Assembly (NCBI GenBank): GCA_018433345.1
Contig: JAHDRK010000025.1
Span: 1-41,342, forward strand
Source of the DNA: Syntrophobacterales bacterium
GTDB lineage: Bacteria; Desulfobacterota; Syntrophia; Syntrophales; UBA2210
Direction: 5' to 3'
Length of the DNA: 41,342 bases
Every line of letters begins with the position of its first letter. The first letter of the stretch is position 1. The position numbers and the translations under genes are program-made. Shown here in pieces: positions 39,987 to 40,641 of this stretch. The notes beneath the pieces are model-generated. The model did no database searches. It was not told where the DNA came from and saw nothing but the letters and a program-made list of their open reading frames with translations.

Positions 39987-40460
39987 TCACCATTCATACT
40001 GAAGGTTCGCCCTGTCCACCATCCGCCGGGGAATGTGGTAGTGCTTCCCATCGATGTCAACAACTATCGTTTTTTCACCATTTTCATCAATATAATCCAC
40101 AAGGCGCCCTCGAAAATTTTTTCTTCCCTCGATGCTCTCATGGATCCGTATCTTTATGACTTTACCCCGGTAGGCCATAAAGTCCTTGTCTCGGGCAAGG
40201 GGCCGGTCCAGTCCCGGCGAAGACACTTCCAGGTCGTAGGAACCGGGAGGCACGTCATGAACCGCGAGAATGTCGCCCACCTCATCGCTGATGCGGACGC
40301 AATCATCGATCGTGACACCCTCCCCGCCGTCGATATATATCCTCACGAGCCATCGGGATCGACCCCTCATGCACTCCACATCCACGATCTCGAAAGCCGC
40401 CGATTCGACGGCCGGCTCGACGAGCATCCTTATGACATCCCTGTAACTTTCGTTTTTCAT
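39987..40460 (-). CDS. rimP: Ribosome maturation factor RimP
   Basis: RimP assists 30S subunit assembly. From the ATG at 40460 it has 157 residues: YRDVIRMLVEPAVESAAFEIVDVEC, then RWLVRIYIDGGEGVTIDDCVRISDEVGDIL and PGSYDLEVSSPGLDRPL, the diagnostic centre. The SH3-like C-terminal domain has FRGRLVDYIDENGEKTIVVDIDG. The start is chosen because the longer frame to 40511 would begin with TTG and read through the terminator hairpin. The ribosome-binding site is weak (TAGAG). It is the first gene of the large translation/RNA operon, 15 bases before nusA. Confidence 0.94.
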   Translation of the reverse strand: MKNESYRDVIRMLVEPAVESAAFEIVDVECMRGRSRWLVRIYIDGGEGVTIDDCVRISDEVGDILAVHDVPPGSYDLEVSSPGLDRPLARDKDFMAYRGKVIKIRIHESIEGRKNFRGRLVDYIDENGEKTIVVDIDGKHYHIPRRMVDRANLQYEW

Positions 40461-40480
40461 GAACTCTATAACCGTAAATG

Positions 40481-40504
40481 AAAAAAGTGGGCGGGGCCCA
40501 CTTT
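40481..40504 (-). terminator. Rho-independent terminator/attenuator in the rimP leader
   Basis: AAAGTGGGC and its inverted copy (40484-40492, 40496-40504) form a perfect 9-base stem with a 3-base loop; on the minus strand a run of six T (40481-40486) ends the stem. It stands 63 bases after the tRNA-Gly gene and 20 bases before the rimP start codon. It may end the hisD-tRNA transcript, and if the promoter at 40530-40558 is real it also acts as an attenuator for the rimP-nusA-infB operon. Confidence 0.75.
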
Positions 40505-40529
40505 CATTCAAGTGAATTACTATGCGGAA

Positions 40530-40558
40530 TTCCTAGCACAAAAGAAGGGCTGTTGCAA
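40530..40558 (-). promoter_or_regulatory. Candidate promoter between tRNA-Gly and rimP
   Basis: On the minus strand TTGCAA (40553-40558) is 17 bases from TAGGAA (40530-40535), which is preceded by TGC, an extended -10. The boxes are moderate. It is the only reasonable pair in the 62-base gap, and a start here would place the terminator hairpin in the 5' leader of rimP. Confidence 0.35.
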
Positions 40559-40566
40559 TGAAAAAA

Positions 40567-40641
40567 TGGAGCGGGCGATGGGACTCGAACCCACGACGTC
40601 CAGCTTGGGAAGCTGACATTCTACCACTGAATTACGCCCGC
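40567..40641 (-). tRNA. tRNA-Gly (anticodon CCC)
   Basis: Reading the minus strand, a full cloverleaf is seen: acceptor stem GCGGGCG pairing with CGCCCGC, D-arm, anticodon stem TCAGC/GCTGG around loop TTCCCAA (anticodon CCC, reads GGG), T-arm with GGGTTCGAGTCCC, discriminator T and an encoded CCA at 40567-40569. The length is 75 with CCA. No intron or odd pairing apart from a T-G pair at the top of the anticodon stem. It is transcribed in the same direction as hisD upstream and rimP downstream. Confidence 0.97.

Follow-up and report, generated by a model that had tools for sequence, protein, structure and literature searches.

A hairpin of the rimP-leader kind before rimP-nusA-infB in Syntrophales and its probable role in attenuation

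The stretch of DNA analysed here (the window, 41,342 nt) carries a hairpin with a run of T residues between a tRNA-Gly gene and rimP, the first gene of rimP-nusA-infB, and raises the question of whether this hairpin merely ends the tRNA transcript or governs expression of the genes behind it. A sequence-only reading of the window had proposed an attenuation layout in which NusA may set its own level at the stem. Attenuation before rimP-nusA-infB is still the best reading of the locus, and it fits the rimP-leader family as set out in the pertinent passages of a published survey (PMC2965389).

The rimP locus and its hairpin

The features of the locus are collected in Table 1. ARAGORN and Rfam agree on the tRNA gene, and Pfam domains were found for all three proteins; tRNA, hairpin, rimP, nusA and infB lie on one strand, as had been read. 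The hairpin is 65 nt from the end of the tRNA-Gly(CCC) gene on the same strand, and the 20 bases between the end of its T6 run (40481) and the ATG of rimP (40460) are likewise as first described.

Table 1. Features of the rimP locus in the window
Feature	Position	Strand	Basis or remark
Histidinol dehydrogenase gene, end	40726	-	Pfam PF00815
Promoter-like site before tRNA, TTGACA-16-TAAATT	40672..40699	-	Consensus scan 10/12; consensus match only
tRNA-Gly, anticodon CCC, CCA encoded	40567..40641	-	ARAGORN and Rfam (66.5 bits)
Inner promoter (P2), promoter-like: TTGCAA (40558-40553), 17 nt, TAGGAA (40535-40530)	40530..40558	-	Conserved in the order
Weak upstream stem TTCA..TGAA, directly before terminator	40504..40518	-	4 pairs here; stronger counterpart in other genera
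rimP-leader terminator	GTGGGC 40501-40496, loop CCC 40495-40493, GCCCAC 40492-40487, T6 40486-40481	-	
rimP	39987..40460	-	Pfam PF02576 (RimP_N), PF17384 (RimP C-terminal domain)
nusA	38613..39971	-	Pfam PF08529, PF13184, PF00575
infB (IF-2)	35949..38555	-	Pfam PF11987, PF00009, PF04760

The hairpin had been described as a 9-base GC stem with a T run. Hairpin and T run stand, but the stem is really a 6-bp core, GTGGGC/GCCCAC (five G-C pairs and one A-U pair), extended by A-U pairs. The terminator scan placed a terminator-like site of 10 pairs with a loop of 3 at 40505-40483 on the minus strand, in a region that is not enriched in such sites (3 found, 3.2 expected from shuffles). Folded in isolation, the hairpin reaches -16.6 kcal/mol (z -5.65), and none of 200 shuffles was as good.

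Only the tRNA reached its Rfam threshold in the window, and no T-box was among the matches with E up to 10. On the plus strand, positions 40460-40605 gave a sub-threshold match to the antisense RNA HPnc0260 (35.4 bits, gathering score 59), which is likely spurious and partly the complement of the tRNA. At a contig end of the same genome, a stretch (L002, G000:C15:5488-5555) is 90% identical to the 3' part of the tRNA-Gly and is perhaps a second, cut tRNA-Gly gene; ARAGORN made no tRNA call there.

Conservation of the hairpin, the inner promoter and the tRNA gene

Of 41 relatives, 37 have a single genomic match to a strict pattern, GTGGGCN{2,8}GCCCRCTTTTTT, which in every case lies in the rimP upstream region, and the single match in the source genome is the one before rimP. 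Three of the four remaining relatives (G006, G025 and G038) have no RimP match, and the contig of the fourth (G032) ends 129 nt upstream. The reversed pattern had no match in the 41 relatives, and a permuted stem with the same letters in another order had three, in two of them; looser hairpin patterns also match elsewhere. Further genomes of the order carry the strict pattern once each in 36 of 39 cases. The sequence-only reading had called for a comparison with related Desulfobacterota genomes, and hairpin and tRNA, far from missing in all close relatives, are present in all 17 same-genus or same-family relatives that have rimP.

Across Desulfobacterota, rimP upstream regions were compiled from 179 genomes; 38 of the 41 relatives contributed, as did 144 of the 148 genomes from the phylum, and the two sets share 3. 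The sequence GGGC..GCCC with a T run (strict form) occurs in 123 of the 179, and a relaxed form that also allows GYGGG..CCCRC in 141, namely 1/1 for the genome itself, 4/4 for its genus, 13/13 for the family, 21/22 for the order and 102/139 for the phylum. The patterns used found no hairpin in 38 regions, a few of them because contig ends are nearby; some pattern-negative regions have a plain stem related to it, for example GTGGGT..ACCCAC or GTGAGC..GCTCAC, and others have no terminator within 400 nt.

At least 119 stretches of the whole collection match the pattern GTGGGCN{3,6}GCCCACTTTTTT. Among the 119 matches listed, which include records of Acidobacteria, Alphaproteobacteria, Nitrospira, Rokuibacteriota and Chloroflexi, 89 precede RimP and 92 precede RimP or NusA. 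For the other 27 neither gene follows, in some cases since the locus ends there, and thus the exact pattern is not enough by itself to define the switch. The strict pattern is present in just 14 of 60 genomes sampled from Acidobacteriota, where all 14 loci precede RimP and have no tRNA upstream. E. coli K-12 has GGGCTTTAGGCCC-T7 directly before rimP.

Within the order, 137 of 155 genomes were examined and 133 were kept, 6 of these being accepted on a RimP_N match with a stretch too short for the check in the script. The genomes dropped were G032 (contig end 129 nt upstream of RimP_N), G281 (95 nt after the hairpin), and G189 and G204, whose loci held another match; the 18 left out, for lack of a rimP match, a listed match or a retrieved locus, include G292-G297, which have the strict pattern. 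An alignment of 44 of the 49 genera (A1), which omits five short-leader genera of the source genome's family, has 17 invariant columns, all within the stem and the T run. The stem is invariant over the 44 genera apart from one wobble, as is the T6 run throughout, and no pair of the terminator stem changed on both sides, giving zero compensatory pairs. In the order the loop measures 3 to 7 nt, and across the phylum 3 to 11 nt. A stem held constant while its spacing is free is consistent with an RNA hairpin that has its arms read, and speaks against a DNA operator.

A promoter between tRNA and rimP, with a start near 40523, had also been proposed, and a promoter-like site is indeed found there (P2 in Table 1). 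It was not listed by the consensus promoter scan, its -10 element being below the rule of that scan. Of the 49 genera, 46 have a sequence of the form TTG[CA]..TA, mostly with 17-nt spacing and at most 90 nt from the hairpin (shuffle mean 8.3, maximum 16); an earlier test with tighter limits on both the region and the -10 element had given 33 of 49 genera against 2.9 in shuffles. In the 30 genera that have both tRNA and promoter, the distance from TTG to hairpin has a standard deviation of 6.7, compared with 24.0 for the distance from tRNA end to TTG. Transcription from P2 would be expected to start near 40523.

Many members of the order have in addition a stem, such as TCATCG..TGATGA, that ends directly at the terminator. 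Upstream stems of at least 5 Watson-Crick pairs occur in 28 of 49 genera (shuffle mean 8.5, maximum 15), a count inflated by relatedness, and in certain lineages both arms have changed jointly (g11 and g154 have TCGAAT/ATTCGA, and g21 has AATTTTGA/TCAAAATT). This hairpin is weak or absent in the source genome's family, and the source stretch has only TTCA/TGAA. RNAalifold on 44 genera predicted the terminator alone and not the upstream hairpin, and the 36 nt before the terminator have a mean z of -0.82 for the order and of -0.32 for the phylum at large; because of these weak scores, the claim of an upstream hairpin is confined to some members of the order. A possible small ORF in the leader, with its start within TGATGA, was set aside, since genera with TTCGA arms lack an ATG there.

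In 17 of 141 leaders, belonging to several families, a motif GTCTGC(T) lies 7 to 14 nt ahead of the hairpin (0.3 expected in shuffles), for example at loci L096, L080, L086 and L102 of the Desulfobacterota genomes G044, G080, G112 and G162; two leaders with the motif (G056 and G146) have GCAGA after the T run. Some genomes of genus g28 (G230:C69, G242:C50, G243:C82) have a second hairpin, GGGCATATGCCCGC-T6, on the other strand, roughly 360 nt away from the one before rimP.

The tRNA-Gly(CCC) gene lies on the same strand at most 700 nt upstream of rimP in 102 of the 179 Desulfobacterota regions, and apart from it these regions have just a single tRNA-Leu, encoded on the other strand. Among the 172 regions of at least 400 nt, the hairpin is present in 89 of 102 with the tRNA and in 47 of 70 without it (Fisher p 0.002). 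Some of the loci listed domain-wide have tRNA-Gly(CCC), two have tRNA-Met at most 400 nt upstream, and most have no tRNA. Since the identity of the tRNA differs between lineages, the tRNA is, judging from these comparisons, a lineage neighbour like metY in E. coli, and what stays constant is the hairpin. The comparisons lend no support to the earlier inclusion of the tRNA in the device, as the hairpin is kept in those 47 tRNA-less regions and in the 14 Acidobacteriota loci, and the promoter tracks the hairpin and not the tRNA. Open-licence papers yielded no report of the tRNA-Gly(CCC)-rimP arrangement. The acceptor stem of the tRNA, GCGGGC/GCCCGC, is nearly the same as the terminator stem, and each could pair with an arm of the other; this likeness is probably a coincidence, because loci that lack the tRNA have the identical terminator stem.

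Proposed mechanism and rival explanations

The rimP leader is probably an attenuator, in which a short leader RNA, its termination raised by NusA, caps expression of rimP-nusA-infB. Transcription would start at P2 or arrive by readthrough from the tRNA promoter, and RNA polymerase would meet the intrinsic terminator about 20 nt past the P2 start, there to stop near 40481 with an RNA of about 40 nt or to continue into rimP-nusA-infB. By raising termination at the stem, plentiful NusA would turn the operon off, and scarce NusA would let the polymerase pass. A promoter that starts transcripts only tens of bases before a terminator is sensible only if polymerase gets past that terminator some of the time, and this inference from the conservation of P2 is the strongest argument for attenuation.

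What the sequence itself establishes is the order of the genes, the hairpin with its nearly invariant stem and its link to rimP, and the conserved promoter that tracks it. That transcription terminates there in vivo, and that NusA is responsible, are suggested by analogy with E. coli, B. subtilis and Streptococcus agalactiae. That the fixed sequence of the stem is read by a factor, and not just its stability used, may be said with less weight. In a fuller version, possible but put forward tentatively, the stem would be a sequence-specific signal, nearly unchanged across distant phyla and read by NusA or by NusA with polymerase, and the second, covarying hairpin of Syntrophales would tune the response.

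It is rather unlikely that attenuation is real with a factor other than NusA (RimP, NusG, Rho or another RNA binder), or that the strength of the hairpin alone sets the level. The stem sequence is fixed far beyond the needs of a terminator, which points to a specific reader, and RimP is also raised in the relevant passages of PMC2965389. However, NusA is encoded within the controlled operon, and accounts of NusA feedback, as far as the portions of the papers compared below extend, report it in two distant bacteria and propose it in a third.

That the hairpin does no more than end the tRNA-Gly transcript, with some leakage of polymerase into rimP but no regulation, is improbable. Its position shortly after the tRNA on the same strand and its somewhat greater frequency where the tRNA is present would suit such a role, but a conserved promoter stands between tRNA and hairpin at a constant distance from the hairpin, the hairpin persists before rimP where there is no tRNA, and an invariant stem would be unnecessary for a tRNA terminator. 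The constancy of that distance and the persistence of the hairpin together argue against a plain tRNA terminator.

That the hairpin serves chiefly in protection or processing of the mRNA 5' end is very improbable: RNase III processing sites are described for the E. coli operon in the pertinent part of PMC6511841, but the stem is short here and the invariant T6 run is not needed for processing. It is most improbable that the palindrome, a perfect inverted repeat with fixed half-sites, is a DNA operator for a repressor dimer, as half-sites 3 to 11 nt apart are not expected to suit a rigid dimer and the T6 run never varies among the aligned genera. We give just as little credence to an action of tRNA-Gly(CCC) or its precursor on the terminator, by pairing of the acceptor arm with the terminator arms or of the CCC anticodon with GGG, for which the nearly identical stems and the widespread synteny (102/179) could speak, but against which stand the same hairpin at loci with no tRNA or with tRNA-Met, the lack of a T-box match in Rfam and, more weakly, a minimum-energy fold of tRNA plus leader that keeps the terminator but lacks the cloverleaf. 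The readings as tRNA terminator only, DNA operator, T-box or tRNA-acceptor pairing, and processing stem were rejected on the evidence against each.

With attenuation at the rimP leader as the preferred reading, Desulfobacterota come within reach of the rimP-leader, with the sequence of the stem, and not its strength alone, held fixed, and the question of what reads GTGGGC/GCCCAC is made directly testable. No open-licence paper was found that maps the reader of this stem.

Comparison with known systems

The E. coli metY-nusA-infB operon, in the part of PMC6511841 that deals with it, has promoters P-1, P0 and P2 and terminators before rimP, and its transcripts rise when NusA termination is reduced. 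It resembles the present locus in having a tRNA gene, a promoter between tRNA and rimP, and terminator sequence before rimP, and the NusA feedback reported there would have its counterpart in the one proposed here; the tRNA is initiator Met in E. coli and Gly(CCC) here. The B. subtilis nusA leader, as described in the passages concerned (PMC12288461), has an intrinsic terminator at which NusA stimulates termination and so regulates itself, and is likened to the present leader by description and not by sequence. For the rimP-nusA operon of S. agalactiae, the corresponding section of PMC4448216 gives short and long transcripts, with termination 31 nt after the start, and infers NusA feedback from the transcript ends.

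The rimP-leader is listed as RF01770 in the part of PMC5955585 that mentions it. The RF01770 model, a Gammaproteobacteria rimP leader of 102 positions, shares the operon and the GGGC/GCCC terminator with the present locus, but it has no match in the window with E up to 10 (gathering score 47 bits), nor at the other Desulfobacterota loci tested; the positive control, the E. coli locus L182, scored 102 bits.

The rimP-leader was described in 2010 by Naville and Gautheret, in the passages that treat it, as the most ubiquitous bacterial attenuator, with the signature GGGc...gCCC and with NusA as the best candidate factor (PMC2965389). The locus in the window has a GGGc...gCCC stem (40501-40487) and T6 run 20 nt before the rimP of rimP-nusA-infB (range 4-130), its single strict-pattern match in the genome agrees with a motif specific to rimP, and, as in those passages, no antiterminator is visible. 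It differs from that description in the tRNA-Gly(CCC) gene and the hairpin-tracking promoter in front, and many members of the order differ further in the second hairpin that abuts the terminator; the rimP-leader passages of PMC2965389 do not mention tRNA-Gly. Thus, the hairpin belongs in its general form to the published rimP-leader, an attenuator of a kind already known, to which its pairing with tRNA-Gly and with a promoter of its own is added here.
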